Assembly: GCA_029582165.1 (NCBI GenBank)
Contig: CM055872.1
Coordinates: forward strand, 28,616,743 to 28,680,742
Direction of reading: 5' to 3'
DNA from: Portulaca oleracea
Lineage: Eukaryota; Streptophyta; Magnoliopsida; Caryophyllales; Portulacaceae
Length of the DNA stretch: 64,000 nt
In this document: positions 5,915 through 61,207 of the stretch, piece by piece
How the letters are laid out: the number at the start of each line of letters is the position of its first letter
Numbering within the stretch: position 1 is the stretch's first letter
Notes under the pieces: model-generated
The model's input: only the letters and a program-made list of their open reading frames with translations
The model's database searches: none
What the model was told of the DNA's origin: nothing
Program-made: the position numbers and the translations under genes

Positions 5915-5960
5915 TTTAGAAACTTCATTGACAAAACAAAGTTACAAAACAACCTGGTGA

Positions 5961-5969
5961 TGTATGTGC
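5961..5969 (-). repeat. First 9 bp of element B 3' LTR, split by an insertion
   Basis: TGTATGTGC here is the edge of B's LTR; the rest resumes at 8702. The uninterrupted version at 27739 (TGTATGTGCAGACC) is the empty site and proves the split. The last five bases are the TSD of the inverted-LTR unit. Confidence 0.85.
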
Positions 5970-6953
5970 TGATGCATAATTGATGGCCTTATGCATCAAG
6001 GTCAACCATGGAGACATCTAATACTCACCTAGAAGGAAGAAGAGCTCAAGTCTCTTATATATCTCTCTACTTGGAAGGGATCAACTCATATGGTTGTATA
6101 CTTTTGCTCCTTAATTCAAGGACCATGAAGCTATCATAGAAGTCATCCTAGAGAGGATTAATCTACATTCCAAGAGCTTTCATATGGTTCAAGAATCTTT
6201 AAGTTTGGATGAGAATCCAAGGAGTTATTCATATTTGTAATATAGTTTAGTATATTGTTTTCTTTATGATGTAAGCCAATATGGGCTAGTTTCTTGAAGT
6301 TGTATACGCCAAAGGGAAGGGTTCTGTACTATAAATACCCCCCCTAAGGTGCTTTGTAAATCAATTCATTCACATTGAATTTTTAGATAACAAACACATG
6401 GTGTGTTCATTCTAGCTTTCATGCTAGGTTCTTTTCGTTTCTCTCTTGTGGGATTCGAATCATCCCCTTCTTCTCGCTAAGGTTGGCATCCTAAGTGGTG
6501 ATAGGAAGAGATTGAAGCATTCTTGAAGGTGGTGTGGCTGTATCCTCCAAGAATCTTCAAAGCCATTATCATTCATCATTCAAATCGTGAGTTTCTTTCT
6601 AATTTTCATTTGATCTTGTTTTGTTTCTACATTGTTTCAAATTCAAGATTCATTTGAATATCATACAATCATTCAAGAAACTTATATTCTATCCATTCCT
6701 ACATTCATTTCATTCATCCATTTCGTCCATTCCATTCGTTTATCCATCCATTCATTCATTCATTCATTCAATCTTAAAGAAACACTTAAAGATCCTAGTC
6801 TTTTGTATAATTTGATCATTCTTGATCCTATTATACATCATTTCATTCAATTTGGTTGATCTTTAAGAACTTTGAGAAGCAAGATTCTTATCTTGGTTTT
6901 TAAAGATCCTGTTTCCAGGTATAATGAGATTCCATTGATCCCATTATACATCA
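5970..6953 (+). repeat. Left LTR of inverted unit
   Basis: Begins TGATGCATAATTGATGGCC and ends CCCATTATACATCA; 984 bp. It carries a TATA box (6330-6337) and is followed by a tRNA-iMet primer site, so its sense is plus. It matches the right copy with about five differences by eye. Both ends can form hairpins. Confidence 0.9.
6330..6337 (+). promoter_or_regulatory. TATA box in left LTR
   Basis: TATAAATA in the LTR; the same box is present in related LTRs (33734-33741, 39157-39164 and, as TATTTATA on plus, 27052-27059). It would drive a transcript rightwards across the core into the inverted LTR. Confidence 0.6.
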
Positions 6954-6957
6954 AAAT

Positions 6958-6969
6958 TGGTATCAGAGC
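6958..6969 (+). promoter_or_regulatory. Primer binding site, tRNA-iMet
   Basis: TGGTATCAGAGC, the standard initiator-Met primer sequence of plant LTR elements, four bases after the LTR end. Confidence 0.9.
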
Positions 6970-7314
6970 TTAGGAGTTTGAATCTCTTAGTTCTTGAAAC
7001 AATCATTTTACAATCTTTCCCTCTCCCACACGTTCCCCATCACCCCTACCATCACACGTCCATCACAAAATTCATCCTCCATCACACGCCACCCATAAGT
7101 TCTTCCAAGAACTCATCAAGAACCCATCAAGAACTCATCAAGAACTCATAAAGAATCATAAACTCCACAAAGAACCCGTGAGCCCAAACACAAATCCAAC
7201 CAATTCCCCCTCACGTCCCTTCTATGCTAACCATCCTACCATGAGTTTCTTGTGATCTTTTGAATCAAGATTGGTTCTAATGGATTGCAAAAGGTCCAGC
7301 AAGAATTCCCAACA
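6970..7314 (+). other. Leader and gag start of inverted unit
   Basis: Homologous to the untranslated leader of element C (26439-26220), including the block before its start codon (GATTGGTTCTAATG at about 7270-7283). It also carries the ACTCATCAAGA tandem motif of D's leader. After the gag ATG it keeps no more than about ten codons before D-like LTR sequence begins. Confidence 0.65.
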
Positions 7315-7713
7315 AGAGCTTATGCTTTGTTTTCTCTCTAACCTTTGTGTTAGAATCTGGTTCTCTTGAGGGAGAATCCTTTGAATCTTCTCTTCTATTC
7401 CAAGAGGGAGCAATCTTGGATGGTGCAAAGGAGGAGTTGGATATCAAATTTATTGTGGTGTGTCTGTATCAATCAAGGAGATTTCCATTGCCAAAATCTA
7501 TCAAGTTTCTACATCAATTCAACGAGTTCTTTTACAATTGGTATGTTTTTGCCATTGTTTTGATTCTTTTGATTGTCATTCAATTCATCACATTTAGAAC
7601 TCTCGTTTAGCCTTTTCCATTCGTCCATTTTCAATCTAATTCATCCCATTCTTTCGTTTGAAACTAGTTTTTGAGAAATTCAACTATTGCAAGTTTTCAC
7701 TTGTGGAAAATTT
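7315..7713 (+). repeat. Partial D-like LTR inside the inverted unit
   Basis: The sense strand matches the reverse complement of element D LTR, roughly 33290-33660, diverged by perhaps 15-20% by eye (shared CTATTCCAAGAGGGAGCAAT and GGATGGTGCAAAGGAGGAGT). It lacks the first half and the last few dozen bases. Its end merges into the right LTR at a shared TGTATAATGG. Confidence 0.75.
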
Positions 7714-8696
7714 TGATGTATAATGGGATCAATGGAATCTCATTATACTTGGAAACAGGATCTTTAAAAACCAAGATAAGAATCTTGCTTCTCAAAGTTC
7801 TTAAAGATCAACCAAATTGAATGAAATGATGTATAATAGGATCAAGAATGATCAAATTATACAAAAGACTAGGATCTTTAAGTGTTTCTTTAAGATTGAA
7901 TGAATGAATGAATGAATGGATGGATAAACGAATGGAATGGACGAAATGGATGAATGAAATGAATGTAGGAATGGATAGAATATAAGTTTCTTGAATGATT
8001 GTATGATATTCAAATGAATCTTGAATTTGAAACAATGTAGAAACAAAACAAGATCAAATGAAAATTAGAAAGAAACTCACGATTTGAATGATGAATGATA
8101 ATGGCTTTGAAGATTCTTGGAGGATACAGCCACACCACCTTCAAGAATGCTTCAATCTCTTCCTATCACCACTTAGGATGCCAACCTTAGCTAGAAGAAG
8201 GGGATGATTCGAATCCCACAAGAGAGAAACGAAAAGAACCTAGCATGAAAGCTAGAATGAACACACCATGTGTTTGTTATCTAAAAATTCAATGTGAATG
8301 ACTTGATTTACAAAGCACCTTAGGGGGGTATTTATAGTACAGAACCCTTCCCTTTGGCGTGTACAACTTCAAGAAACTAGCCCATATTGGCTTACATCAT
8401 AAAGAAAACAATATACTAAACTATATTACAAATATGAATAACTCCTTGGATTCTCATCCAAACTTAAAGATTCTTGAACCATATGAAAGCTCTTGGAATG
8501 TAGATTAATCCTCTCTAGGATGACTTCTATGATAGCTTCATGGTCCTTGAATTAAGGAGCAAAAGTATACAACCATATGAGTTGATCCCTTCCAAGTAGA
8601 GAGATATATAAGAGACTTGAGCTCTTCTTCCTTCTAGGTGAGTATTAGATGTCTCCATGGTTGACCTTGATGCATAAGGCCATCAATTATGCATCA
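7714..8696 (-). repeat. Right LTR of inverted unit (opposite orientation)
   Basis: Reverse complement of 5970-6953, 983 bp. Its U3 end ATTATGCATCA faces outward and touches the TSD. The TATA box on the minus strand is at 8336-8329. Confidence 0.9.
8329..8336 (-). promoter_or_regulatory. TATA box in right LTR
   Basis: TATAAATA on the minus strand; it would drive a transcript leftwards, convergent with the one from 6330. Confidence 0.6.
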
Positions 8697-10336
8697 TGTG
8701 CAGACCAAAACTAATCTGAGTGTACTAGCCTGGACAACACCAAAGGCCCTCCCTGACCTTGTTAATTCAACTTAAGCTTTTCCTAGGGAAGGAAAAGCAT
8801 CAAGGAACGAAATAAGGAAAGATAAGAAAACCTGTGTATCCAATTGATACAGACCACGCCTCAGCAAGAAACACAAGGGCAAGACTCAGCTCATGTACTG
8901 GATACAGTCCACACCACTAGAACACAAACTAAGCTCTACTTAGCACCTTCTAAGCTTGCCAAGGCTTAGTTACAGACAAGTAAAAAGGGTTGAGAGTTTT
9001 TAGAGACACTCACAAACACAAAGGAGCATGCTCCACTGGTTTCCCATATCATTCACTCATAATGATCATATTACTTAGAAGCTTTGCTTATATTTGCCAC
9101 TTTAAGCAAGCAGCTGGCTGTCTACTAAGGATTAAGGTTTCCTAAGCATAAAGAAACCTCTAATCTGTTACTAAGCTAACTTAATATACATAATTGAGCT
9201 GCTTAGAACTAATACATAGCTTAAATACATCAGATAACATCAAGAAAACAACAAAATAAAATAAAAAAAGAATAGCTTAATCTGATTGGGCCAGCAGCTG
9301 CTTCTTCATGCAAGAGTCATCTTTCCACTTGATTATTTAAATGTTCCTTGGCTGCTGAAAGTAGCTTGTTGCATTAAACATTAAGGACATTCGACATTAA
9401 AGGGAAAATGACCAAATGACCTTATTAAAGCTGAAAATGCCAACATTGTCCAGCTGCTTGATGTTGCCTACACTCCCTGAACAAACTAGCTGTAGAAAAT
9501 GTCTAGGAACAACAGTCACTTGCACTCCTCGATCAGTGCTCTTTGATGAATCAAGGAATACATAGGATCCACTAAATGTTATTACCTTTACTGCTGCAGC
9601 TTGTATTAGACCTTGAATTAGACCTGAACCCTGATTTCACAGGTTGGGGTTCTGCCAAGGTCTAATTTGATCAATTGGACTTTGGTTCTAAGGCTAAAGT
9701 TGCCTCCTGCACATGATCCTAGGGTGATCATGTTGCTTCCATTCAGAAATTCAAAACTCCCCTAGGACCTGTCTTCCCTTGCTGCTTTAATCTTGCTGTA
9801 GGAGGGATAGACCTGTCAATTCGGTCGGGCGGGTGGTTTCGGGTCGGTCGTATATCGGGTTCGGGTTAATACGGGTCAGGTGTATTTCGGGTTCGGGAAA
9901 ATACTGGCGGTGTATTTCGATTTCGGGTCAACCCAACGGGTTATAATTGCGACCTTTATTCGCTATTTCTTTTTAAAAAATGGTCTTAAATACTACTTTT
10001 TGTACAATATACATAATAAAATATGATTATTTTCTAGCAACGATAGGTTACTGTAACTATTTTAACTTAAGAGAAATAACAAATAAATAAGTTGCGCTTA
10101 TAGTTTAATAGTTAAAAATTTGAATGCAAAGTCACAAATTTTAATAAAGTTTAACTCAAAAAGTTAAATTTTCGGGTCAAACGAGCGGGTCGGGTTTGAC
10201 CCGCTAATTTTCGGGTTCGGTATACTTCGGGTTTAGTTGAAAAAATTGTGTTCAAAACCCAGAAATTTCGGGCGGGTTCGGGTCGGGTTGTCGGGTCGGG
10301 TCAGAAATTGCCAGGTCTAAGGAGGGACTTAATCCC
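8697..10336 (-). repeat. Element B 3' LTR, main part
   Basis: Continues from 5969; matches 27748-28870 over its length apart from a MITE at 9808-10319. The two LTRs differ at several sites per 100 bp, so B is older than its insertions. The inner edge is near 10336, before a GGGGGGATT purine stretch on the minus strand; the exact first base is uncertain. Confidence 0.75.
9808..10319. mobile_element. hAT-type MITE with 8-bp TSD
   Basis: Ends TAGACCTGTCAATTC and, in reverse complement, TAGACCTGGCAATTT. It is flanked by a perfect AGGAGGGA duplication (9800-9807 and 10320-10327). The B copy at about 28853 lacks the insert and has one AGGAGGGA. Interior rich in CGGGTCGGG, typical of this MITE type; no transposase. 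512 bp. Confidence 0.9.
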
Positions 10337-11516
10337 CCCTGAATTCGCAGCTAGGTCCTAGTTTGTGAAGGACCTGCTCAGTTCAGGAATGAAAGTCCTC
10401 CCCTTGACCCTTGTTGTATCAACTATTAATGCTGATGTAGATGGACCTTCATCATCGTCCTCTGGTTCAGAAAAGTTTGACGTCAAACTTGGTAAACCCT
10501 CCTCTGCTGGATAATAGGGTCTAAGATCTGCAACATTGAAAGTTGCACTCCCTCTATAGTCTTCAGACAAATCCAACTTGTAAGCATTTTCATTGAGTTG
10601 CTCTAATACCACGAATGGACCATCAGCCCTGGAAACAAGCTTCCCTTTTCTGTTGCTAGGAAACCTGTCTTTCCTGAGGTGTACCCATACCAAATAACCT
10701 AGAGTAAATACAACTCTTCTTCTCTTTTGATTTGTTGTTGTTGCTATTTTCTCATTGTGCTTCTCAATCTAGTGTTGCACTTGTTGATGGAACTCTTTAA
10801 TATGCTTGGCCCTAACTTCAGCTTCATAGCTAAACTTAACTGAAGTAGCTTGGGGTACTAAATCCAAAGGAGTGATTAGATTCGGACCATAAACTACTTG
10901 GAATGGTCAGTAGCTTTGCTAGGGGCTCTGTTGAAAGCAAATTCTGCCTGTAGTAGCATTGTATCCCAACTTCCTTTATTTCGTGCCACTAGGCTTCTCA
11001 AGAGTGCACCTAAGCTTCTGTTTGTAACCTCAGTTTTCCCATCTATCTGAGGGTGACAGGTAGTGCTAAACTTGAGTTGAGTTCCCATCTTCTTCCACAA
11101 TGTAACCCAGAAATGGCTTAGAAATTTGGTATCCCTGTCTGAAACCATAGACCAAGGAATGCCATGTAATTTGACTACCTCTTGAAAGTACAAATCAGCA
11201 ACTTTCACAGCATCAAAGGTAGTATTACAAGGAATAAAATGAGCTATTTTTTAGAATCTATCAACAACAACCATGATAGGTCTTTACCTCTCTGAGTTCT
11301 TGGGAGTCCCACACTAAAATCCAGGCTGACATCTTCCCAGGGACCTTTAGGAAATGGCAAAGGGGTATAAAGCCCTTGGGGTAGGCTTTGACTTTTGGAT
11401 ACCTGGCATACACTGCACCTTTTGACAAGATGCTCTACATCTCTTCCCATCTTTGGCCAAAAGTAATGTTCTTTTAACATAATAAGTGTTTTCTCTATGC
11501 CAAAGTGTCTTGCCAA
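10337..11516 (-). pseudogene. Element B integrase
   Basis: Minus-strand fragments from 11516 down: zinc-binding region ending CSVCQVSKS, the catalytic strand before PRTQRGKD (frameshift near 11244), then VSDRDTKFLSHFW and the CHPQIDGKTEV block with the third acidic residue, and the C-terminal WVHLRKDRFPSNRKGK and TFNVADLRPYY region ending at 10358. Stops and frameshifts near 10700-10890 and 11210-11245 break it. B's own integrase is dead. Confidence 0.8.
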
Positions 11517-13542: not shown

Positions 13543-14492
13543 TGTTCGGTCTCATTTCGAGTCGAATTGATACCGTTAATAAAGGGTTTTTCCTTGTTTT
13601 AGGCCCCTAATTATTAGTAAGTTATGATGATTTTGTGTTTTGTAGGTTAAATCAAAGAAAAGAGGGAAAAGAAGGCCTAAAAGCTCCAAAATCCCATCAA
13701 CCATGTGTGTGGCACCCGCAACCATGGGTTTCGCGCCTGCGACGGTCGGAATTTCCAGAAATAAAGAGGCGGCGGCTAGGTTTAGGGTTTTGATATGTTT
13801 TATTACTTTTTCCCTCTTAAGTTTTATTATATATATTAGGATTTCTATCAATTAGATTAGGTAGTTAGTTTTTGTTTTTCTTTAGTTTACTTTAGTTTTA
13901 AATTAGTTTTAGTTCTAAGCTTTCTTTAGTTTTCTCTCAATTCCTCGATTGTAAGCACATTCTCTTTCAAGATTAATTCAAGTTCTTATTCTTTACTTTC
14001 TGTTTCGCTATTCTCAATTTCATTAGTATTAGTTCCACAAATATTCCACTTTTTAGTGAAGCGGAGGATTAAGCTTCCTCGAATTCTCCCTTCAGGTGAG
14101 GATTTGAGCAGCCTTAGTAATCCAAATCACACCTTTCTTGTTTATTCGGGAGAAAGATTGGTTATTCAAAGATTCAAGATTCAATATTAGAGTAAAGATC
14201 AAACCTTCAGGTTAATGTTTTCTGCTTTAGATTCAGTAATTAATTTAGTTTTTACTTCCATGGTTTTTAATTGCTTTCTTGATTATGCTTTTGATTTCTT
14301 GTTTAGTTTCTTGTTCTAGTTTCCTTAGTTAAGTTTGTATTTCTTGTTCTTGCTTTCAATTCATAATTAGTTTAGTTTAAATTACTGCTCCTGCATATTG
14401 AAAACCTTTCCAAACCAATTTCCTGAAAACCTAACACACCATCCTTGAGGTACGACAACCCTACTTTTTACCCCAAATACCTCAACCGAACA
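13543..14492 (+). repeat. 5' LTR of element A
   Basis: Begins TGTTCGGTCTCA and ends CAACCGAACA; 950 bp. The U5 end has the plant Athila feature of a near TGTGGATTCGACAACC sequence (here altered) just before the primer site. Confidence 0.85.
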
Positions 14493-14493
14493 A

Positions 14494-14511
14494 TGAGGTC
14501 GTTGCCGGGGA
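14494..14511 (+). promoter_or_regulatory. Primer binding site, tRNA-Asp, element A
   Basis: TGAGGTCGTTGCCGGGGA, two changes from a perfect tRNA-Asp complement, one base after the LTR. Confidence 0.85.
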
Positions 14512-14748
14512 CGTCGTTATTTGGTAGATTCGATTTTTAGTTTGTTTGTGAATAGTTTAAATGCTTTCTTAGATTAGTTCAAAAACAAAAACCTAAATAA
14601 AAATCTATAAAACTGAAAAAAATAAAAAAATAAAAAAATTGAGACTTCAAGGAAAAAACGGAAAGTACATCAACTTGAGGTTTGGGTTCGTAGTTCTGGT
14701 AGTCAAAGATTAGTTAGGAAGGAGGAACCCTCGGTAGAATCACCAAAG

Positions 14749-16366
14749 ATGTCTGGAGAAGCACCACCACCTCCACCTAGGGTAACCCTTTATAACCAGT
14801 TATACCCATCTTATGACCCACCACCATCATGTTTTGTACTTCCCAACCTGCCTATAGGAGTGACCTTTGACCCTAGGCAGCACTACACCCAGAACCTACC
14901 ACTGTTCACGGGTACTAGGTTAGCACTGATATGGGCTGCAGAGTACATTAGCATGATAACTCCCCCAAGAGTCCCATTAGATTATGTACTTCTAAAATAC
15001 ATACCTTTTACTATGAGGGACACCACTAAGCGGTGGATGTATAGCATCAAACCTCGGTCCATTAATTCTTGGGACAGTTTTCTAAAAGTTTTTATGAAAA
15101 GGTTTTTTCCAACCTCCTTAGCTACTCAACTGAGGAATTCGATTTTAAAATTTAGACAGGACCTAGGAGAGCCTTACTGGAAAGCTTTCGAACGTTTCAA
15201 AAACTTGTTGTCCCAATTCCCTCATCATGGTCTTGACTTGGTACGACTGTGTCAGATTGTGTATGAGGGTGTTGACCATGAGACTAGAGTCACTCTAGAG
15301 TCAATATGTCAGGGGGATTTCATGGACGAAACTGCTGATGAGGCCTGGGAGTTCTTAGAGAGCATGTCCGAAAGGACAATGCAATGGGGAACCACTAGAG
15401 TTGAGTCCTTAGGCGCTCAATTGTCTAATGCTAGGGGGTGTGCATGCTGTGAGTGAGAGTACAAGTTATGAGGCAAGGTTTGCTTCTCTTGAGAATATGA
15501 TTAAAACCTTAGCCCAACAACAATTAGCTGTTTCACAACCTAAAACTTGTGCTCAGGTTAATTCTTATGACTAGACTGCTGCTTTTGTTCCCCCACCACC
15601 TGTGTCATGTGTCATATGCCAAAGTGTTGACCATGTTTATTCTACCTGTCCTATTTATATTCAACAATTGGCTTCTAGTACTAAAAATGTGAATGTTATG
15701 CATCATAACTATAGGCCTGACCAGTATCAATCCTACCAGCATCAAGGGATGCGCAAGCACCCCTTACTCTCTTATGGCCCCGAGAATCAAAATGTGTTGA
15801 GACCACCTAGTTAGGGAGGGGGTTTCCAAGGAAATCCTCCCCCTCAGAATCGACCACCACCCCAGGCAGCTTATCAAGCTTCTAGAGGGCCACCTATCCA
15901 ACCCCAGATTGCCCAAACCCGACCTCCACCAGGGTACACTAATGAGGATAGGAATGAGAGAGAAATTAGGGAATTAAAGAATGGCCTCACAGAAGTTAAG
16001 GAATCCATGAAGAGTAATATTGAGAAAGTGTTAAAACAAATGAGTGATCAATTCTCTCAAATGATGCTAGCTAATAGAGATAGAGGATCTTTTCCTGCGT
16101 CGCCTGAGGCAAACCCCAATGGGCAAGCTTCAGGTTCGTCATCTGTTGACCCTAGTCAGGTTAGAGGTCTGAATGTTGTTATTACTCTTCGTTTTGGGAA
16201 AGAGATAGATAATAAGGCACAACTGAAATCTTCTGATATGTGTAATGAGAAGACTGTGACTGATGAATTTGTTGATGAGCCTGTTGATGATGAGTCAGAT
16301 GGAGTGAGGGCAACTGCTACAGTTGAGCCTCCTCACACCAAACCTTTTCCAAAACTAACCCTTTGA
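14749..16366 (+). pseudogene. Athila gag, element A
   Basis: Opens at ATG 14749 with a Pro-rich start. The capsid-like retrotransposon gag domain follows (about residues 50-220: LKYIPFTMRDTTKRWMYS, FPHHGLDLVRLCQIVYEGV, DEAWEFLESMS). It is interrupted by stops after 15456. A zinc-knuckle-like CVICQSVDHVYSTC lies at about 15608-15650 in the next open stretch, then a Pro/Gln-rich and acidic linker to 16366. It is a structural protein of the virus-like particle; this copy cannot make a full-length product. Confidence 0.8.
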
Positions 16367-16826
16367 CTAGTCCACAATCTCGAGGGGCTTACAAACCCCC
16401 TCCACCTTACCCTCAGAGGTTAAAGGGTAGCAAAGACCAAAAATTTCTTGACAAAATTAGAAAGACTTTTTCTCAGGTTAAGGTAAACATCCCTCTATTG
16501 GATGTTATTCAGCAGATCCCTCCTTATGCCCGCTTTCTTAAGGAGCTTTGTACTACCAAGAGGGTCACCCAGGTGCCCAAGAAAGCTTTCTAGCCACGAA
16601 TGTGAGTTCTATTATGTTGAACCAAATGCCTATTAAGTACAAAGACCTTGGATGCCCCACTATCTCTATTACCATAGGTGATAGTTTGATAGAAAGGGCA
16701 TTGCTTGACCTAGGAGCTAGTGTGAATCTGTTGCCTTTACATGTGTATGAGATGCTGGGATTAGGTGAACTAAAGCCTACTAGGAAGGTATTGCAATTGG
16801 CTGACATTATTTACCCAATCTCTTAA
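16363..16826 (+). pseudogene. Protease region, element A
   Basis: Contains the segment that precedes the aspartic protease in Athila elements (PPPYPQRLKGSK, IPLLDVIQQIPPYARFLKEL). After a frameshift near 16550-16593 comes the protease core: SLIERALLDLGASVNLLPLHVYEMLGL. The active-site triad reads D-L-G here, where the usual motif is D-L/T/S-G-A-S-V-N. A short direct repeat near 16810-16880 marks the end of this stretch. Confidence 0.75.
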
Positions 16827-16879
16827 GTGGGTGAGTCCTTAAGTGGTTAGATCATGACATTATTTACCCAATCTCTGAT

Positions 16880-17395
16880 AGCAAGTGGGTGAGTCCAATC
16901 CATGTAGCCCCTAAGAAGATTGGTTTGACTGTTGTTGAGAATGAACAGGGAGAGTTAGTTCCTACTCGTGTCCTTTCTGGTTGGCGAGTCTGCATTGATT
17001 ATAGAAAACTGAATAAAGCCACTAGGAAGGACCACTTTCCCCTCCCTTTCATTGATCAAATGCTTGAAAAACTTGTTGGGCATGAGTATTACTATTTTCT
17101 AGATGGTTATTCTAGTTACACCCAAGTTTATATTGCCCTCTGTGACCAGTAAAAGACCACGTTCACTTGTCCTTTTGGCACCTTTGCTTTTCGAAGGATG
17201 CCTTTTGGCTTGTGTAATGCCCCTGCAACCTTCCAGAGGTGCGTGATTTCAATTTTTTGACTTAGTGGAGGAATGTGTTGGAATTTTTATGGATGATTTT
17301 TCTATGTTTGGTACCTCTTTCGATGCTTGCTTAGCTAACCTGAATCACGTGCTGAGTCGATACTAGGAAAAGAATTTGACCCTGAACTGGGAAAA
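16880..17395 (+). pseudogene. Reverse transcriptase, element A
   Basis: SPIHVAPKKIGLTVV, then SGWRVCIDYRKLNKATRKDHFPLPFIDQMLEKL and FLDGYSSY. A stop at 17150 interrupts it. Beyond, in shifted frames, are FGTFAFRRMPFGLCNAPATFQR and the catalytic GIFMDDFSMFG (about 17280-17312). The order and motifs are those of Athila reverse transcriptase; the enzyme is inactivated by stops and a frameshift near 17240-17260. Confidence 0.8.
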
Positions 17396-18125
17396 ATGTC
17401 ACTTTATGGTGAAAAAGGGGATAGTTTAGGGCATGTGATTTCTAAGGATGGGATTGAGGTAGATAAGGCCAAGATTGACTTAGTTAAAAATTTATCCCCT
17501 CCAACCTCTGTAAAAGAAGTCCGTTCATTCTTAGGACACGCCGGTTTTTCCCGGCGATTCATAAAAGACTTCAGTAAAATTGCTAAGCCCTTGTCTTCAC
17601 TGTTAGCTACGGAAGTACCTTTTCACTTTTCTGATGATTGTATGAGGGCCTTTAATCAACTTAAAGATGCCCTTATTTCCCCTCCTGTTCTCAAACCTCC
17701 CATCTGGGGAGAACCTTTTGAGATTATGTGTGATGCATCTGATTATGCTGTAGGTGTTGTGCTAGGACAAAGAATTGATAAGAAACCTGTTGTTATTCAT
17801 TATGCTAGCCACACCTTGAATGATGCTCAATTAAATTACACTGTGACTGAAAAAGAATTTCTAGCTTTTGTGTATGCCTTTGAGAAATTTAGACCTTACT
17901 TGCTTGGTGCTAAAGTCATAGTTTATACTGATCATTCAGCTATTAGGTATCTGATGGAAAAGAAAGATTCCTAACCTAAGCTAGTCAGGTGGGTCTTGTT
18001 GTTGCAAGAATTTGACTGTGAGATTAGGGACAGGAAAGGAGCTGAGAATCTTGATGTTGACCACCTTTCTAGAATTGTGCCTGATAATGTGAACACCACC
18101 CCTATTGTAGCTATGAGCAACTCTT
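17396..18125 (+). pseudogene. RT connection and RNase H, element A
   Basis: Open from about 17396 to 17974: LGHVISKDGIEVDKAKIDLV, VRSFLGHAGFSRRFIKDFSK, then RNase H with IMCDASDYAVGVVLGQR, YTVTEKEFLAFVYAFEKFRPYL and VYTDHSAIRYLM. After one stop (17972) it continues with [20 protein letters not shown] and DHLSR to about 18075. RNase H removes template RNA during cDNA synthesis. Confidence 0.85.
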
Positions 18126-18981
18126 TAGTGTGGGAGTGGAACCTTGGTTTGCTGATATTGTGAACTTTAAGGTAACTGGAGAGATGCCTAGTGATTGGAA
18201 TAAGCATGACAAGGACAGGTTTCTTCACATTGTGAAGAATTTTGTATGGGATGACCCGTATTTGTTTAAGTATTGCCATGACCAGATACTTAAAAGATGT
18301 GTTCCTGATGAATCCATTATAGATGTCCTCTCTTTTTGCCATGACCAATCTTGTGGGGGACATTATAGTGGAAAGAAAACAACTTACAAGGTCTTACAGA
18401 GTGGGTTTTACTGGCCCACTATCTTTAGAAATGCTCATGACTATGCCCAAAGGTGCCCTAGGTGCCAAAGTTCGGGAAAGATTACTAGGAGAGATATGAT
18501 GCCCTTACAACCTGAGATTTTTGTTGATGTGTTTGATGTGTGGGGTATTGATTTCATGGGACCATTCCCTAATTCTTTTGGGAATGAATATATTCTCCTG
18601 GCTGTTGATTATGTGTCTAAGTGGGTAGAAGCTATCCCTACTAGGGAGTTAAGGAGAGAAGCCTATGAAAATGGGCGATTGAGTAAGGAGAGGTCTAAAA
18701 TCTTACACGATAAGATCATTCATCGAAAGACCTTCTTCCCGGGACAAAAGGTACTCCTTTAAGATTCCCGATTACACTTGTTTGCTGGAAAGTTAAGATC
18801 TAGGTGGACTAGACCCTTTATTGTGACTCAGGTATATCCTTCAGGAGTGGTTGAGATCAAGGACCCATCTAACAATTCTGTGTGGAAAGTGAATGGGCAC
18901 AGGTTGAAGCCCTTCTTAGAGTTTCCTGATACTGCTGACGTGGAATGTGTCACATTCCACGACCCACCTAGTGTTTGAAGG
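18126..18981 (+). pseudogene. Integrase with deleted catalytic core, element A
   Basis: The zinc-binding region is present ([30 protein letters not shown] block), followed by the first catalytic stretch [33 protein letters not shown]. Directly after it, at about 18640, the sequence jumps to the C-terminal region ([35 protein letters not shown]). The core carrying the second Asp and the Glu of the DDE triad is missing, a loss I estimate at several hundred bp. One stop at 18760. It cannot integrate. Confidence 0.8.
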
Positions 18982-21046
18982 AAGGTAAGTTGAGATTCTT
19001 ATATATTTTGTATATCTGACCTTTCTTTTCTTGATTTTTCTTGAGTGCTTCTCCTAAACTTGCTTTGTCAAGAGAGAAGGATTGAAACTTTTTGCAAGAA
19101 ACCATCCAGGTAATATCTTTCCTTCTCTTCTTATTACAGTTAGTGAGTTGACCTTCTTTTCCCTTCTTTTATTTTATTTTCTTTTGGTATATTTCTTTTT
19201 CTTTCCTATCGTGTGCTTGTTTATCTCTATTTCTGATTCCAATGTGGACATTGTTGGCCTTTTTGTGTGGGAGTGGGGGAGGCATGCATGCCGGCTTGAG
19301 TTTCTTTTCCTTTCTTTTGTTTGCTTTTTTTCTTTTGTGTGGTGTCGCCTTATTCACAATGAGGACATTGTAGAGTTTTTGTGTGGGAGTGGGGTGGCAC
19401 AAGTGCCTTACTAGTTTTTGGCAAAAAAATTTAAAATTTTTAGGTTTAGTCTGTCCGGAACACCTTCGGTGATGATTTCTAAACCGATTAGACTTTCAGT
19501 TTGTCTTGTTTCACCTTGAAAAGTTTGGTTGAGAACCTAAAAGTTTTTGAAACTGTTTTCTTCAAATCTTCTGATTTTGAGTCAAGTTATGAAAGTTGTG
19601 TTTAACTGCTTAGACTTTCTTAGTAAGTGTAAATATGCGTGACGCAAATCTTTGGGCTAGGTTTAGTTGAATGAGCCCTATCCCGTGAGTCCATATAGCC
19701 TAAAAGTATGAATTGATCACTTTTATCAATTCTTTTATTTCCTGAGTGACTCCACCACTAGTTGCACCTCTAGAACTTGTTTTGCATCTTGCTTGAGACT
19801 GCATCTTTGCATTACATATTGTGACAATAGATTGAAGCATTCTTTTCTTTATTAATTAAACTACATAGCCAAATAGCCTCCCTAACAATATTATTACCGT
19901 TCTTTAGCCCCGCTTAACCTTTGATTACCTTTCTTTTTGTGATGAAACCCTGACAATACAAGTCATGACCTTTATTAATTCCTACCCTTTGCCTTGCTTG
20001 GATGTGTGAAAATTCATTATTTCGGGAGCAAAATTGGTTCGGTGTTGCTACAAATGGAGTGAGATGTTGGGGTGTGGGTTTTAATTTTTATTGAATTGGG
20101 ACACATTATATTTCCCAATTATTATGAGTTATTCGATTGATTATGAAGTTCTTTTAACATATATTGAGGTCAAAGCTATATTTTATGTTTGATAAGGTGT
20201 TTTGTTCTTAATGAGGGAGAATTGAGTTCCTTGCTCAAATTAAGCAAGAAGGTGAGATTGAGAGCAGATTCTTTATTGAAAATCAATCCAAGCATGACTC
20301 TTTAACTCCTCATGTCCAAATATTATCACTCCTTTCCCCTAACCTAAGCCTCGTTACAACCCTAAAGTCCTCTTGATTGTCACTTGTGTATTTGCACACT
20401 AGCAGTGGAGAGCGAGATTCTTACCAAGCTTATGGTAGGTTGTTTCTTTTGGTCTGAGTATGAGAAAAACCCACACACACATTCAAATTTGAGTGTTTGA
20501 GCGTTCAATTTTTATCCTAGAGTGAGGTTTGCTCTTTTGATTGGCCTACGCCCATAACAACCGCGCATATTTGCATTCATCTTAAGTCTGTTGGCGGATT
20601 TTCACATCTAAAGTACTTGTTCTCTCTACTTAATTTCGAAAACTTCAATTTATCTATTTGTACACTGATTTTGTTCTCTTCCAGATTGATCTTGGTATTT
20701 GCTTGATGGATTGATGTGTTTGATTGGTTAGCCTGAGGGGGTGTTCAGTTGTATTTGTAACCCTTTTATTTCTTTTATTTCTTCTTTTTCCTTTTTCTTT
20801 CTTGAGTATTTTACTTTTTAATCCGAGTCTACCTTTTCTTTTCTTTTTCTTTGGTTTTTGTGGGTATAATTGCTATAAACCCTCACGAGACCTTCCTCGT
20901 CCACTTGGGCTACCAAGGGGTTTAAAGGGCTTGTTGCATACGCTAAATGCAACCGTGAATCCTACAAAAGTGAGTTAAAGTAGCTTAGATTCTCTTTATT
21001 TTTGTTTTAGTTTGATCGGGGCGAGCAAACCTTTGCGTGGGAGTGT
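18982..21046 (+). other. 3' non-coding region and polypurine tract, element A
   Basis: About 2 kb without a credible gene. Two diverged copies of a GGACATTG plus TGTGTGGGAGTGGG module lie at 19239-19290 and 19357-19400, and the final purine tract GCGTGGGAGTG is at 21035-21045. The stretch at 20868-20980 resembles conserved sequence seen before the 3' LTR in Athila-type elements. No env-like ORF survives. Confidence 0.6.
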
Positions 21047-22075
21047 TGTTCGATCTCATTTTGAGTCGAATTGATACCGTTAATAAAGGTTTTTGCTTGT
21101 TTTAGACCCCTAATTATTAATAAGTTATGATGATTTTGTGTTTTGTAGGTTAAATCAAAGAAAAGAGGGAAAAGAAGGCCTAAAAGCTCCAAAAGCCCAT
21201 CAACCAAGTGTGTGGCACCCGCAACCATGGGCTTCACGCCCGCGATGGTCGGAATTTCTGGAAATAAAGAGGCGGCGGCTAGGTTTAGGGTTTTGATATA
21301 TTTTAGTACTTTTTTCCTCTTAAGTTTTATTATATATATTAGGATTTCTATCAATTGACAATTAGAGTAGGTAGTTAGTTTTTAGTTTTTCTTTAGTTTA
21401 GGTTAGTTTTAAATTAGTTTTAGTTCTAAGCTTTCTTTAGTTTTTCTCTCAATTCCTCGATTGTAAGCACATTCTCTTTCAAGATTAATTCAAGTTCTTG
21501 TTCTTTCTTGTTCTTTTCTTTCTGTTTCGCTATTCTCAATTTCATTAGTATTAGTTCTACAAATATTCCACTTTTTAGTGAAGCGGAGGATTAAGGTTCC
21601 TCGAATTCTCCTTTCATGTGAGGATTCGAGCAGTCTTAGTAATCCAAATCACACCTTTCTTGTTTGTTCGGGAGAAAGATTCGTGATTCAAAGATTCAAG
21701 ATTCAATATTAGAGTAAAGATCAAACCTTCAGGTTAATGTTTTCTGCTTTAGATTCAGTAATTAATTTAGTTTTTACTTCCATGGTTTTTAATTGCTTTC
21801 TTGATTATGCTTTTGATTTCTTGTTTAGTTTCTTGTTCTTGTTCTAGTAGTTAGGTTTTATTTTCAATTTCTTGTTTTCTTATTTCCTAGTTTAGTTTCT
21901 TTAGTTAAGTTTTGAATTCTTGTTCTTGTTTTCAATTCATAATTAGTTTAGTTTAAATTATTTACTGTTTCCTGCAATTTGAAACCCAAACCAAACCAAT
22001 TTCCTGAAAACCTAACACACCATCCCTGTGGATTCGACAACCTCACTTTTATACCCAAATTCCTACGACCGAACA
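21047..22075 (+). repeat. 3' LTR of element A
   Basis: Begins TGTTCGATCTCA, ends CGACCGAACA; 1029 bp. About 50 bp at roughly 21840-21900 are absent from the 5' LTR. Confidence 0.85.
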
Positions 22076-22076
22076 A

Positions 22077-22136
22077 TGGCGTCGTTCCCGGGGTCACCCG
22101 CGTGACAGGGGGGAATACTAACCACTATACTACAAC
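22077..22136 (-). other. Reverse-transcribed tRNA-Asp copy fused to the 3' LTR
   Basis: One base after the LTR the plus strand reads as the complement of tRNA-Asp: primer-site sequence with two changes, then after a 12-nt deletion the rest of the tRNA up to about its fourth nucleotide (GGGTGA stem, CTGTCAC anticodon loop, GTATAGTGG D-arm on the minus strand). The deleted part is the T-loop, including position A58. It is not a functional tRNA gene because the T-arm is missing. Five unexplained bases (22137-22141) and then B sequence follow. Confidence 0.85.
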
Positions 22137-27731: not shown

Positions 27732-27738
27732 AAGTTGT

Positions 27739-28862
27739 TGTATGTGCAGACCAAAACTAATCAGAGTGCACTAGCCTGGACGACACCAAAGGCCCTCCCT
27801 CACCTTGTTAATTCAACTTAAGCTTTTCCAAGGGAAGGAAAAGCATCAAGGAACGAAAAACAAATAAGGAAAGATAAGAAAACGTGTGTATCCAACTGAT
27901 ACAGACCACACCTCAGCAAGAAACACAAGGGCAAGACTCAACTCATGTACTGGATACAGTCCACGCCACCATAACACAAACTAAGCTCTACTTAGCACCT
28001 TCTAAGCTTGCCAAAGCTTAGTTACAGACAAGTAGAAATGGTTGAGAATTTTTAGAGACACTCACAAACACACAGAAGCAAACTCGACTGGTTTCTCATA
28101 TCATTCACTCATAATGATGATATTACACAGGAGCTTTGCTTATATTTGCCACTTTAAGTAAGCAGCTGCCTGTCTACTAAGGATTAAGGTTTCCTAAGCA
28201 TAAAGAAACCTCTAATTTGTTACTAAGCTAGCTTAATATACATAAGTGAGTTGCTTAGAACTAATACATAGCTTAAATACATCAGATTACATCAAGAAAA
28301 CAATAAAATAAAATTAAAAAAAGGTTGGTTTAATTTGATTGGGCCAGCAGCTGCTTCTTCATGCAAGAGTCATCTTTCCACTTGATTATTTAAGTGTTCC
28401 TTGGCTGTTGAAAGTAGTTGGTTGTATAAAACATTAAGGACATTAGATCATTAAAGGGAAAATGACCAAATGACCTTATTAAAGCTGAAAATGCCAACAT
28501 TGTCCAGCTACTTGATGTTGCCTGCACTCCCTGAACAAACTAGTTGTAGAAAATGTTCAAGAACAACAGTCACTTGCATTCCTCGATCAGTGCTCTTTGA
28601 TGAATCAAGGAATACATAGGATCCACTAAATGCCATTGCTTTTACTGCTGCAACTTGTATCAGACCTTGAATTAGACCTGAACCCTGATTTCACAGGTTG
28701 GGGTTCTGCCAAGGTCCAATTGCATCAATTGGACTTTGGTTCTAAGGCCAAAGATGCCTCCTGCACAGGATCCTGGGGTGATCATGTTGCTTCCATTCAA
28801 AACTTCAAAACTCCCCTAGGACATGTCTTCCCTTGCTGCTTTAATCTTGCCGTAGGAGGGAC
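27739..28862 (-). repeat. 5' LTR of element B, shared with a second B copy
   Basis: Homologous to 5961-5969 plus 8702-10336. It lacks both the inverted-LTR unit and the hAT MITE, so it is the empty site for both. Beyond its outer edge lies the 3' coding end of another B copy, so this LTR serves two B copies in tandem. The exact outer edge is uncertain by about 10 bp. Confidence 0.75.
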
Positions 28863-28990
28863 TTAATCCCCCCTGAATTCCCAGCTAGGTCCCAGTTTGT
28901 GAAGAACCTACTGAGGACTTCAGGAAAGAAAGTCATCCCCTTGAACATTGCTGTATCAACTATCAATGCTGATGTAGATGGACCTCCATC
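28863..28990 (-). pseudogene. Integrase C-terminal remnant of a second element B
   Basis: Matches B 10328-10455 (GPSTSALIVDT and the stop region) next to the shared LTR. Homology stops at about 28990, where LINE 2 begins. Confidence 0.75.
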
Positions 28991-29264
28991 ACCTGGGCAT
29001 ACCCAGGGGGTCATAAGCAACTGACCCAGTAACAAAACAAACTTAATCACAAAAACCAATTACATCAAGATGCTCAAGAGCCCTCAAAACAAGAGATTAG
29101 TATAATCTTAAAGATATATCAGATTTGACAAAGCAACATAAGGTGGAAGAAGAGTTCCGGGTGTTTTGATGGACTCTTCTATTCCTCTCACCCCAAACAT
29201 GATAAATTATGGTAGCCAAAGCAAGTCTTTTATCTTTTTCCTTGAACCCAGCTTCCTTCCATGA

Positions 29265-41002: not shown

Positions 41003-41681
41003 TGTAAACACAAATTTCCGGGTCTAAAATAAATAAACACAAGAAATTAGTGAACAAATATAATTGTATTAATTTCAAAAGATTTTGGGTACAATCTCTA
41101 TATATTTGTTACAAAAGGAAAATGTAACTCCTTCGATTCGATCTCCTTGAATGAACTTGAACGAGTCTTGGATGAGTATGGTTTTGGATGAATATAATTT
41201 TGGATGAATATACTCTTGAGTGAATATAAACTTGGATGAATGTGATCTTGAACGAGGGTCGTAAAAACTTGATCCCGATCAAGAGGAAGTGGTTTGATCT
41301 CCTACGAATGAACGGCACGAGCTTAAACTTTGTTGTGCTTTTTGTCGTCGAGGGAGAGAGTATGAGAGATTTTTGAGTCTTCTTTTGATGTTTTTCTACC
41401 TCTTAAAATGAAGGAGAATGGTCTCTATTTATAGAGAACATGGGTTAACCTTGGCACCCATTTAACCCCTTTTTAAAAAAAAAAAGGACGGACAAATATT
41501 TATGTGTCATCCATGACACGTGGCATAACTTAATTGGCCAAAATATAATATCATTTAATTTATAATCAAATGATCCATCATAATTAATTTTAACACATGG
41601 CGGATTATAATTGGCCGAATTAAAATTATTTAATTTACACGTGGCGAGTCTTGCTTGGTTTACAAATTTTTGCCTTCTACA
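41003..41681 (-). repeat. 3' LTR of element E
   Basis: Matches 45420-46080 with small indels; preceded on minus by the purine tract CTCGAGGGGGCATT (41695-41682). Confidence 0.85.
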
Positions 41682-41695
41682 AATGCCCCCTCGAG

Positions 41696-42279
41696 AGTTG
41701 GTCGCGCCTACGACTTGGTAGTACTTGTCGCGGTCGGGTCTCGAAACTTGACTATGAGATTTGCACGTTTTGAATTTGTATGCTACCCATATTGATTTTG
41801 ACTCGGCAGGGTAGTCAAATTGTAAATTGAATCCCATACTATTCAAATGGGAAAATAAAAACTTATTATAATACAATTTGAACTGTATAATATACATAAG
41901 TAGGACATTTTTTCTTTAAAATCTTGCCGATAAGGCAACTGTATCAATTAGGCCATGCAAACTTATTGATTTGTAGAGATATATTCATATATATGCTGAC
42001 AATATTCTCCCCACTCCATTAAAAATCGTCAATGTAAGGAAATGATATAGACTTTCCAATATCCTCCTAGACAGCACATGTATAAATTGTGACTTTTATC
42101 TTTCCAATAATCTCCACTGCTTCGATTTTGTGCACACATCCAAGAAAGTATTTTCATCTTCTCTTTTCCTACATTCATGACATTAGTTGCCATCAGATGC
42201 TCAACGGAGAATATAGGCTCTGATTCCACCTCTTTTTTTTCTGTTGATCTTTGTGTTGCCCCCTTTTATAGAGACAAAA
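41696..42279 (-). other. Internal non-coding part of element E
   Basis: Between the purine tract and the 80-bp array; no convincing coding sequence. Confidence 0.4.
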
Positions 42280-43060
42280 TAACTTGCCGATTAGAAGACA
42301 AGCGGGGACCTTTGGTTGTCCTCCTTTGCCGGGGACATCAATTCGGCCCGTCTTGAGCATATCCTGGCGATCCGAAGACAAGCGGTGACCTTTGATTGTC
42401 CTCCTCAGTTGTGGAATCAATCCGGCCCGTCTTAAGCATATCTTGGCATCAAAAGACAAGTGGTGATCTTTGATTGTCCTCCTCAATTACGGACATCAAC
42501 TCGGCCCATCTTGACTATGTATTGGCGATCAGAAGACAAGTGGTGACCTTTGATTGTCCTCCTCTATTGGAGACATCAATTCGGCCCGTCTTGAGTATGT
42601 AACAGTGACCAGAAGAAAAGCGGTGACCTTTGATTGTCCTCCTCAGTTGGGGACATCAATTCGGCCCGTCTTGAGTATGTATCGACAACCAGAAGACAAG
42701 CGGTGACCTTTGATTGTCCTCCTCAGTTGGGGACATCAATTCGGCCCGTCTTGAGCATGTATTGGCGACCAGAAATCAATTCGGCCCGTCTTGAGCATGT
42801 ATTGGCAATCAGAAGACAAGCGGTGACCTTTGATTGTCCTCCTCAGTTGTGGACATCAATTCGGCCCGTCTTGAGCATGTATTAGCAATCAGAAGACAAG
42901 CGGTGACCTTTGATTGTCCTCCTCGGTTGTGGACTTCAATACGGCCCGTCTTGAGCATGTATTAGCGACCAGAAGATAAGCGGTGACCTTCGATGTCCCT
43001 CTTAGTTGGGGACATCAATTCGGCCCGTCTTGGATTAGATCACTGATAATCGGAAGACAA
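42280..43060. repeat. 80-bp tandem array in element E
   Basis: CGGCCCGTCTTGAG or a near variant recurs at 42343, 42423, 42502, 42582, 42662, 42742, 42782, 42862, 42942 and 43021. Spacing is 79-80 bp apart from one 40-bp step. Each unit also has GGTGACCTTTGATTGTCCTC. Not a CRISPR: units are contiguous with no unique spacers. Confidence 0.92.
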
Positions 43061-43129
43061 CTTATCCTCATGCGTCTGCATCACGCCTTTGAGCGCTTGA
43101 TCCTCTTGATCTTTGATGCCTCGAACATG

Positions 43130-43700
43130 TAGACCTTAGAAATTCAACATTCTTTGATGACTTGAATCTTGGACTTTGTTGACTTAGGAGTCTCAAACTT
43201 GAAAATTTTGAATTTCGAATTCGAAGTATTTAACTTGGATGACTTGAGAACCTTTGATTTGAAAGTCTTTAATTTTGCTGACTTGTGAGTCTTTGACTTG
43301 AAAGTCTTGAATTTGGATTGGTGAGTCTTTAGTGGTGATGACTTTGGAGCCTTATTTTTGACTTGAAAGTCTTTAGTCTTGGTGACTTGAGAGTCTTTTT
43401 TCTTGAAAATTTTGAATTTGGACTTGTGAGTCTTGAGTGTTGATAACTTGGAAGTCTTGGATTTTGACTTGTGAGTCATTAACTTGATGACTTGAGAGTC
43501 TTTGATTTGAAAATTTTGAATTTGGACTTGTAAGTCTTGATTTAAATGACTTGAAAGTCTTGAATTTTGTTGACTTATAAGTCTTTTGCCTTGATGACTT
43601 GGGAGTCTTTGACTTGAAAGTTATGAATTTTTGACTTGTGAGCCTTGATTTGGATGACTTGGAAATCTTGAATTTTTTACTTGTGAGTCCCATTCTTTTT
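43130..43700. repeat. Short irregular tandem repeats in element E
   Basis: The near-palindrome GACTTGAGAGTC and variants, followed by TTTGACTTGAAAGTCTT-like sequence, recur at about 20-36-bp steps. On the minus strand they encode a low-complexity Lys/Ser/Thr/Phe-rich stretch after the gag stop. Confidence 0.8.
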
Positions 43701-43738
43701 TTCTTTTTTTTAACTTGACTTAAAAACTTGTAATAAGT

Positions 43739-45343
43739 TCAATCAGATTCATCACTCTCGTCTTCATCGAACACAATCTTGCCTTTATTTTTAAGCCTCA
43801 TGACAAGCTCATTAAAAGTTTGACACTTCTCCAATGGATGGCTAATGATCCTGTGGTACTTGCAGTATTTAGGGTCATTGATTCTTCCAACTTCATTTGG
43901 ACGCTTCGACTTTGGAAGTTTAATAATTCCTTTTTCAAGAAGTTTATCAAGTATTTCGGGTGTATCACCGTCGGGAAAAGGATATTCTTTCTCTTCAAGA
44001 ATCATTGATGAAAGAATTCCTTTTGACATGCCCCCGAGTGAAGTTTGCTTCTCCTTGAAACTTGGTCTTCTTCCATCATGTTTGAAAATTGTGAGCTCCA
44101 TATCATATGCCCGTGTTGCCAACTCTTGAAAAGCTGTTGGCTTACTCATATGCAAAACATAAAGCAGATCCCATTCCATGCCTTGTATACACATCTCGAC
44201 AGCGGAGGCTTCAAACAATCAATCTTTACACTCAAGGCTGAGTGACCTCCAACGATTGATATAGTCTAAGACTGGTTCCCGGTACCATTGCTTCGTGTTT
44301 GTCAACTCCGTCATACTAACGGTGCGTTGAGTGTTGTAAAATCGATTAAGGAACTCTTGATCCATTTCTCCCTAACTGCCAATGGACTCCGACTCCAAGT
44401 CCGTATACCAATCAAAGGCGATTCCTTTAAGGGTTCTAACGAACTGCTTCACTAGTTTATCTCCCTCAGTCCCAACATTATTGCAAGTCTCGATGAAATG
44501 AGCTATATGCTGCTTAGGATTCCCTTTACTATCGAAGTGAGTGAATTTCGGCGGTTGATAGTCGTAAGGCATGCGAAGTGCGTCAATCCTCTTTGTTTGT
44601 GTAAGGCTTCATGTACAATTGAGTTTTACGAGAGCCTCCCTTGATCTGAGCTTTTATCGCATCGGCTACTAGTTTTTGGATCTGCTCCATAGACAATGAG
44701 CCCGAGTCGGAACCTTCTTCACATTTCTCATCTTCGTCAGAATCTTCCTGATTGGATCCTCTGTCGGAATCTTCATCTCCCGAACCTTCGTCGAATTTGC
44801 TAGCGGGTCGCTTTTCTAACTTTTTTGTCAATTTCTTGATCCGCTCATCTTGTCGCTTAATATGCTCAGTCTTTTCCTCGCTTTCTTTCTCAAGTCTTGT
44901 CAGCGTGACCTTCATAGTTTTGAATTCTTCTTCATAGTTAATAGCATATGTGACCATGACAGGCATAATAATGGAGTCGATATCAGAATCGGAGGAGAGC
45001 GGATCCATTGGTGATTTTGGCATTTCCACGCCATCTTCATAGTCTTCATCATCTTCACTCAATGGTTGATGGTGGATTGATGGTGGATTTCATACACCCA
45101 TTGAGCGACTACCTTCTTCGGGTCAATAACTTGACTCGAAGTAGTTTGGTTTGCCCCCGGCAAGTCGGAGTCAAAGATTTGCAATAAGGCACTCGCACCA
45201 ACTTGTTTCTTGGCCTTAATAGCGGCGATCTTGGTCATCCTTCTAGTGATTACTCCACTGGATGTCATACTAGCTGTTGATCCTTGTGACGTAGATTGAA
45301 CAACTTTCTTTGAAGCAAGAGAGATGTTGTTCTTAGGCGCCAT
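43739..45343 (-). pseudogene. Broken gag of element E
   Basis: The likely original start is the ATG at 45343 (MAPKNNISLASKKVV). A frameshift at about 45060 leads into an acidic, coiled-coil-prone stretch (TRLEKESEEKTEHIKRQDER, about 44860). A stop at about 44580 is followed by the gag capsid-like block (HFDSKGNPKQHIAHFIETC, VRTLKGIAFDWYTDL), then further stops, and EMCIQGMEWDLLYVLHMSKP with LATRAYDMEL and KYCKYHRIISHPLEKC. This is the gag type of non-chromodomain Ty3/gypsy elements. It is inactive. Confidence 0.75.
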
Positions 45344-45419
45344 CTTCTTGAATGATGAGTAGTTCGTTCTTGGAGAAAGAGATGAGAGGTAGAGATGTCC
45401 CACCGAGCGTGCAAAAATC

Positions 45420-46080
45420 TGTAAACACAAATTTCCATGTCTAAAATAAATAAACACAAGAAATTAGTAAACAAAGATAATTGTATTAATTTCAAAATAT
45501 TTTGGGTACAATCTCTGTATATTTGTTACAAAAGGAAAATGTAACTCCTCTGATTCGATCTCCTTGAATGAACTTGAACGAGTCTTGGATGAGTATGGTT
45601 TTGGATGAATATACTCATGAGTGAATATAAACTTGGATGACTGTGATTTTGAACGAGGGTCGTAGAAACTTGATCCCGATCAAGAGGAAGTGGTTTGATC
45701 TCCCACGAATGAACGGCATGAGCTTAAACTTTGTTGTGCTTTTTGTCGTCGAGAGAGATAGAGAGAGTATGAGAGCTTTTTGAGTCTTCTTTGGATGTTT
45801 TTCTACCTCTTAAACTGAAGGAGAATGGTCTCTATTTATAGAGAACCTGGGTTAACCTTGGCACCCATTTAACCCCTTTAAAAAAAAGGACAAATATTTA
45901 TGTGTCATCCATGACACGTGGCATAACTTAATTGGCCAAAAAATGATATTATTTAATTTATAATTAAATGATCCATCATAATTAATTTTAACACATGGCG
46001 AATTATAATTGGCCGAATTAAAATTATTTTAATTTCCACGTGGCGAGTCTTGCTTGGTTGACAAATTTTTGCCTTCTATA
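45420..46080 (-). repeat. 5' LTR of element E
   Basis: 661 bp; begins TGTAAACACAAATTTCC on plus. I could not match the adjoining primer site to a tRNA. Confidence 0.85.
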
Positions 46081-61080: not shown

Positions 61081-61207
61081 GGAGGATGCTTAAACCATTA
61101 CCGGGAAAACCTCTGCTACGGATAGTCTACACAGACTACAGAGGGTTTTTTTTTTAAAGGAAATAATGCAGAGGGTTATGTTAGAATGTTTGGATAAAAA
61201 TATCACT
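61081..61207. other. 5' flank of the host gene
   Basis: Only 137 bp separate the start codon from a MITE. A T run lies at 61148-61156. I see no clear TATA box on the minus strand. Confidence 0.35.

Follow-up and report, generated by a model that had tools for sequence, protein, structure and literature searches.

A window of 64,000 bp from Portulaca oleracea (contig C5, 28616743-28680742, in the plant's own assembly of 1.13 Gb and 63 contigs) contains a unit of two almost identical long terminal repeats (LTRs) in inverted orientation. Both U3 (unique 3') ends face outward, and a single target site duplication (TSD) of 5 bp flanks the unit as a whole. The unit is an aberrant product, real and inserted in one piece, whose structural principle recurs at least once elsewhere in the genome; it is not a demonstrated new mobile class. 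With a probability of roughly two in three, we regard it as a defective reverse transcript that arose from a plant Ty3/gypsy family, became integrated and carries two U3 ends owing to a recurrent error, the misextension of strong-stop DNA.

The two arms (Table 1) differ at five sites in 984, comprising four substitutions and one indel. A change from C to T at 6305 is derived in LTR1 and the difference at 8302 is probably derived in LTR2; for the remaining differences the derived arm is less clear. Four substitutions in 983 bp, with a substitution rate of 1.3e-8 per site per year, would place the insertion at roughly 0.16 million years ago if both arms were identical at the start. TG..CA LTRs, a 5-bp TSD and a primer binding site (PBS) beside LTR1 agree with a Ty3/gypsy insertion, apart from the orientation of the LTRs, which is inverted instead of direct. 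Neither LTR possesses a TSD of its own: LTR1 is bordered by TGTGC and AAATT, LTR2 by AATTT and TGTGC, and only the outer pair matches. The preliminary description, which had proposed inverted LTRs of 983 and 984 bp with outward U3 ends and one TGTGC duplication, is borne out in these points.

The unit interrupts element B, a gypsy element on the minus strand, 12 bp inside its 3' LTR. The 12 bp to the left of the unit represent the outer end of B's 3' LTR, because this LTR starts at 5958, directly after the TSD of B. To the right, positions 8702-9807 match B's 5' LTR with 93% identity over 1114 aligned positions, and positions 10320-10454 with 89% identity over 138 positions. The corresponding empty site in B's 5' LTR reads TGTTGTA-TGTGC-AGACC. 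That B's other LTR serves as an empty site, as had been proposed, therefore holds and is refined by the 11/12 bp match of the outer end and by B's own TSD, which is intact. As the target is intact on both sides, the unit entered as one piece with a 5-bp TSD. The earlier claim of a one-piece integration through two U3 ends gains support from this TSD and from the intact outer context, and a second such unit is present on contig C9 (see below).

Table 1. Coordinates of the inverted-LTR unit, its core and its target site in element B (positions within the window).
Feature	Position	Strand	Remarks
TSD of element B	5953-5957; other copy 28992-28996		CCTGG, intact
Outer end (12 bp) of B's 3' LTR, to the left of the unit	5958-5969		11/12 bp identical to B's 5' LTR at 27736
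Left TSD of the unit	5965-5969		TGTGC
LTR1	5970-6953	+	984 bp, TG..CA, U3 outward, TATA box at 6330
U5-PBS spacer AAAT	6954-6957	+	identical in element C
PBS TGGTATCAGAGC	6958-6969	+	adjoins LTR1
Donor 1: PBS, leader and gag start of the unit's own family	6954-7310	+	3' part ~92-99% identical in other genomic copies
Donor 2: R-U5 piece of the abundant LTR family Z	7311-7709	+	399 bp, core 358-756
Junction 2: Z U5 to complement of PBS-T and spacer (ATTT)	7708-7713		~1 nt shared
LTR2	7714-8696	-	983 bp, inverted, U3 outward
Right TSD of the unit	8697-8701		TGTGC
B's 5' LTR, empty-site reference	27736-28991	-	single TGTGC

The core of 760 bp between the arms is a chimera, and both donor families are identified. 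On the plus strand it consists, in this order, of the spacer AAAT between U5 (unique 5') and PBS, the PBS, the leader, the start of gag, a foreign piece and the complement of the spacer, after which the inverted LTR2 follows. The PBS (TGGTATCAGAGC) is presumably of the initiator-methionine type. A genome search with the core resulted in 41 matches (best 40 of 5045 candidates). Among them, 39 further places carry the foreign piece at 99% identity, all aligning over core positions 358-756, and in the 29 loci displayed the piece reads as the R-U5 part (R, repeat region) of LTR family Z. With respect to Z, it begins about 60 nt downstream of the point where the TATA box starts and, where the LTR end is intact, stops 51 nt short of it. 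No coding sequence is present in the core as far as seen; its 760 bp are leader and LTR sequence.

At the left junction of the Z piece, the leader continues as CCCAACGTGA in seven loci (L005, L031, L035, L036, L041, L052 and L065), where the unit has CCCAACAAGA; Z reads TCAAACAAGA, with a 3-nt microhomology (AAC) between Z and leader. The sequence of Z at the right junction is GTGGAAAGATCC, such that GTGGAAA-GATCC in Z stands against GTGGAAA-ATTT-TGATG in the unit. On the opposite strand, ATTT reads as the U5-PBS spacer and the preceding A as the first base of the PBS. The motif AAATT (spacer and PBS T) consequently succeeds U5 in LTR2, as it does in LTR1 and in the 5' LTR of the neighbouring element C, and both arms are therefore 5'-type LTR ends. 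The flanks of the 3' LTRs of elements C and D differ from the AATTT/AAATT context of LTR2. Furthermore, no polypurine tract (PPT) is found beside LTR2, its place being occupied by the U5 of Z and the spacer, while PPT-like tracts precede the 3' LTRs of C (CAGGGGAGA) and D (AAGAAGGGGTGAA).

The second unit with two outward U3 ends is located on contig C9 (22332826-22337806) and flanked by CCCGC on either side. It consists of a plus-strand LTR, an 8-bp gap, a minus-strand LTR, PPT, internal region, leader, PBS and a further minus-strand LTR. The plus-strand LTR is complete and passes through the spacer and 4-6 nt of the PBS (one base changed) before the switch, where it meets a U5 lacking 9-11 nt; the ranges are due to an AT common to both sides. 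The three LTRs differ from one another to about the same extent (26/976, 20/970 and 23/964), as expected from one event. They are ~85% alike to the window LTR, and the core is different. Window and C9 units thus go back to separate events, as their LTRs are only ~85% alike and their design differs, and the C9 unit is the older one according to the divergence of its LTRs. A genome search with the C9 LTR gave 47 matches (best 40 of 5664 candidates), among which 16 full-length copies reach at least 90% identity, including the middle C9 LTR (nt 1-976). Grouped by coordinates and strand, these 16 copies form six multi-LTR groups and three singles.

Three further loci, on contigs C21, C19 and C16, are candidate, unproven cases of aberrant inverted structures. 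The first (L067 and L042, about 15708600-15717000) opens with a plus-strand Z LTR, joined through a tRNA-like 3' end to a C-like LTR that is inverted and accompanied by internal region and leader; a partial minus-strand LTR, a plus-strand leader (with a second inversion junction in the leader) and another plus-strand Z LTR follow. The two Z LTRs at the outside of this locus share 98.8% identity over 1003 bp. The tRNA-like piece of ~25-28 nt, which may be a tRNA 3' end with T-arm, acceptor and CCA, ends in CCA exactly at the primer position beside the inverted LTR. In the inverted element, the leader can be aligned to that of the family from the very first base, including the PBS (87%). As this is another PBS type, the tRNA-like piece does not simply represent the primer of that element. 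The C19 locus (L036, L068, L069 and L070; 18870784-18884980) possesses the tail-to-tail 3' LTRs of two elements, U5 facing U5; the pair is interrupted by a C-like insertion and is possibly an inverted dimer. On contig C16 (L034, 15272000-15281999), an inverted LTR pair with inward U3 ends is 94% alike over 743 bp.

The 41 core matches comprise the window itself, the 39 Z pieces and one leader (core 1-360, 78%), and no second copy of the whole core is found among these best 40 of 5045 candidates from the own genome. With the window LTR, 50 matches were obtained (best 37 of 5235 candidates), among which only the two window copies exceed 95% identity over the full LTR length. The LTR superfamily looks modular, as some copies are 91-95% identical over approximately nt 1-600 and others 83-84% over nt 134-984 of the window LTR. 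Units bounded by LTR ends and flanked by perfect 5-bp TSDs were scanned for in loci selected by similarity, mostly about 4 kb long (L068-L070 lay outside the scan); where a locus overlapped the window, C9 or C21, the sequence of the latter was used in its place, and the strict end patterns missed element D. The nine rows obtained, which give no rate, comprise two U3/U3 units (window and C9), six U3+U5 units and one spurious U5/U5 case. The preliminary description had raised an undescribed class of mobile unit. This finds no support, as no other whole core occurs among the 41 matches and the C9 core differs; the LTR search suggested there for further inverted copies did yield the C9 unit with its TSD, and no shared core among the matches listed.

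Both units may be explained by a misdirected strong-stop transfer. Plus-strand strong-stop DNA, consisting of U3-R-U5, the spacer and a few nucleotides of the PBS, would fail to anneal to the minus-strand PBS, and its 3' end would be extended instead close to a U5, with a sense strand as template. In the window case, this template would be RNA or DNA of Z that was presumably co-packaged; synthesis would then jump, inside R, to the own family's leader and proceed through PBS and LTR up to the U3 end. In the C9 case, extension would occur on the U5 of a full-length plus strand, which would be copied back to its U3 end. Both termini of the complementary DNA (cDNA) would then be U3, and integrase would use the U3/U3 pair with a normal TSD as a result. 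Such a pair should suit the enzyme, because U3 (TGATGCATAAT) and U5 (TGATGTATAAT) agree in all but one of their outer 11 bp; retroviral integrases are known to take two like ends in vitro. As expected from this course, the inverted arm stops just past the U5-PBS boundary, ~1 nt into the PBS in the window and 4-6 nt in C9.

Several points weigh against this origin. No intermediates are visible, two switches are required, and the microhomology at junction 2 is only ~1 nt. The Z piece probably starts inside R and not at the start of R, and is for this reason no exact strong-stop product. Five of the six multi-LTR groups found with the C9 LTR are direct (C19, C26, C4 and two on C21) and C9 alone is inverted; one in six is no rate, because the sample was picked by likeness to C9, and TSDs in it were checked for C9 and C19 only. 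The searches with the window LTR, the core and the C9 LTR cover the best 37 of 5235, 40 of 5045 and 40 of 5664 candidates, respectively.

The main rival, which we judge rather unlikely, assumes that two incomplete linear cDNAs were end-joined by the host, with microhomology or non-homologously, and that the two-U3 product was then integrated. Short homologies at the junctions (~1 nt at junction 2 of the window, ~2 nt in C9) would suit such joining. A dimer made outside the particle would nevertheless still need integrase bound at both ends, and the arms break ~1 nt (window) and 4-6 nt (C9) inside the PBS, close to the point where plus-strand strong-stop synthesis ends; moreover, both donors seem to belong to the same superfamily, which would be expected from co-packaging.

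A replicating class of inverted-LTR mobile units is very improbable. The existence of a second U3/U3 unit with a TSD speaks in its favour, but cores and LTR subfamilies differ between the window and C9, no core copy beyond the window is among the 41 matches (best 40 of 5045), and the unit has neither a PPT nor a sense 3' R for strand transfer. Without a PPT and a sense 3' LTR, it should not repeat its own structure. By-products of reverse transcription account for the facts better than a propagating class does.

Even less credit is due to a later rearrangement of a direct-LTR insertion, whether the 3' LTR flipped at the short inverted repeats of its termini or neighbours recombined. The LTR ends are indeed near-identical short inverted repeats; however, a flip in place should leave a PPT by LTR2, where the U5 of Z and a 5'-type spacer are found, and recombination between elements is not expected to preserve one perfect TSD. 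An assembly artefact, such as a fold-back read or a collapsed repeat, is equally hard to credit: near-palindromes are an assembly risk and the unit is known here from the assembly alone, but the arms differ at five sites and the core is asymmetric, the TSDs of the unit and of B both fit, and an independent locus (C9) follows the same principle. Least probable of all are two insertions made independently at one site, or nesting, which is common here and explains a similar-looking case on C19 (ordinary nesting, TSD TAAAC), but would not leave both LTRs lacking a TSD of their own within one matching outer pair.

Integration normally pairs a U3 with a U5 end, and the two insertions with perfect TSDs show a natural use of U3/U3. 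Their junctions record where reverse transcription went wrong, with the donor families identified in the window case. Common annotation tools look for direct LTR pairs, and inverted units may be missed. If frequent, U3/U3 units would give rise to large inverted repeats and to hairpin RNA. It is a tentative and rather doubtful extension that misdirected strong-stop transfer constitutes a regular, heritable side route with efficient U3/U3 insertion, which would supply inverted LTR repeats genome-wide and possibly sources of small interfering RNAs (siRNAs) that silence their own family. Both LTR promoters point inward, and readthrough transcripts would then form long hairpins. Mu killer, which silences MuDR in maize, offers a parallel for the unit as an siRNA source.

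Among the neighbours, elements C (TSD CTTCT) and D (TSD TAATT) are ordinary insertions with direct LTRs, each with its own TSD. These relatives of the unit contain Ty3-type gag/pol: gag is recognised by Pfam in both elements, joined in D by RT, RNase H and the integrase zinc-binding domain, with rve remaining below the curated cut-off there. The 3' LTR of B also contains a short hAT-like element (9808-10319) with the ends TAGACCTG and CAGGTCTA and an 8-bp TSD (AGGAGGGA). At 13543-22093, a direct repeat pair encloses plus-strand pieces of gypsy type, with gag at 14626-15456 and pol pieces at 17339-18762; B apparently harbours a nested element here. Further along the window, an LTR-like direct repeat pair (41003-41679 and 45420-46078) delimits positions 41003-46078, inside which arrays of ~80-bp units (42284-43032) and 104-bp units (43253-43683) occur. 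A near-perfect palindrome of 559 bp (51351-51909) is 95% self-complementary with little or no spacer. The host-type gene at 60337-61089 points to a plant setting, with its best named match in Chenopodium quinoa (60% identity, 73% of the query), followed by Heliosperma, Bienertia and Saponaria; all four genera are Caryophyllales.

Products of DDE integrases typically show TG..CA ends, a 5-bp TSD and a PBS. DIRS-1 (PMC5633606) resembles the window unit in its inverted terminal repeats but, according to the accessible part of that source, has a tyrosine recombinase in place of integrase, whereas the window unit shows all three of these features. The 5-bp TSD separates the unit from DIRS elements, and its core is explained by leader and LTR sequence (no scan was directed at recombinases). 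Terminal-repeat retrotransposons in miniature (TRIMs) are defined by short direct LTRs with PBS and PPT; the LTRs of the unit are inverted, 983-984 bp long and not accompanied by a PPT. Inverted arrangements in unintegrated retroviral DNA were reportedly described by Junghans et al. in 1982, and autointegration circles are without free LTR ends. Retroviral autointegration circles and displacement products (PMC5314604, as far as its accessible text goes) are likewise inverted arrangements in unintegrated DNA; the window unit, unlike the circles, represents a linear two-U3 form integrated with a TSD. For HIV-1 proviruses with asymmetric LTRs, the available portion of the study (PMC9278108) invokes aberrant plus-strand strong-stop transfer between co-packaged templates, as is proposed here, and counts proviruses with genome inversions; the asymmetry there is a deletion in one LTR, in contrast to the inverted LTR of the window unit. 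No description of an integrated two-U3 unit was recognised among titles and abstract beginnings, a body of literature that mostly leaves subscription journals outside and provides weak evidence of novelty. Template-switch complexes with TSDs have been reported in wheat relatives, rice and maize (Sabot & Schulman 2007, PMC1950507). The window unit shares with them a chimeric cDNA from two co-packaged elements for which abnormal template switching is invoked, a single flanking TSD of 5 bp and near-identical outer LTRs. Those complexes possess three LTRs around two cores in one head-to-tail chain, with the switch between R regions. The window unit, in contrast, has two inverted LTRs with U3 at both ends and switches at the U5/PBS boundary and inside R, and instead of an internal third LTR and two complete cores it contains an R-U5 piece only. 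The unit is thus best read as a new variant of the template-switch complexes.

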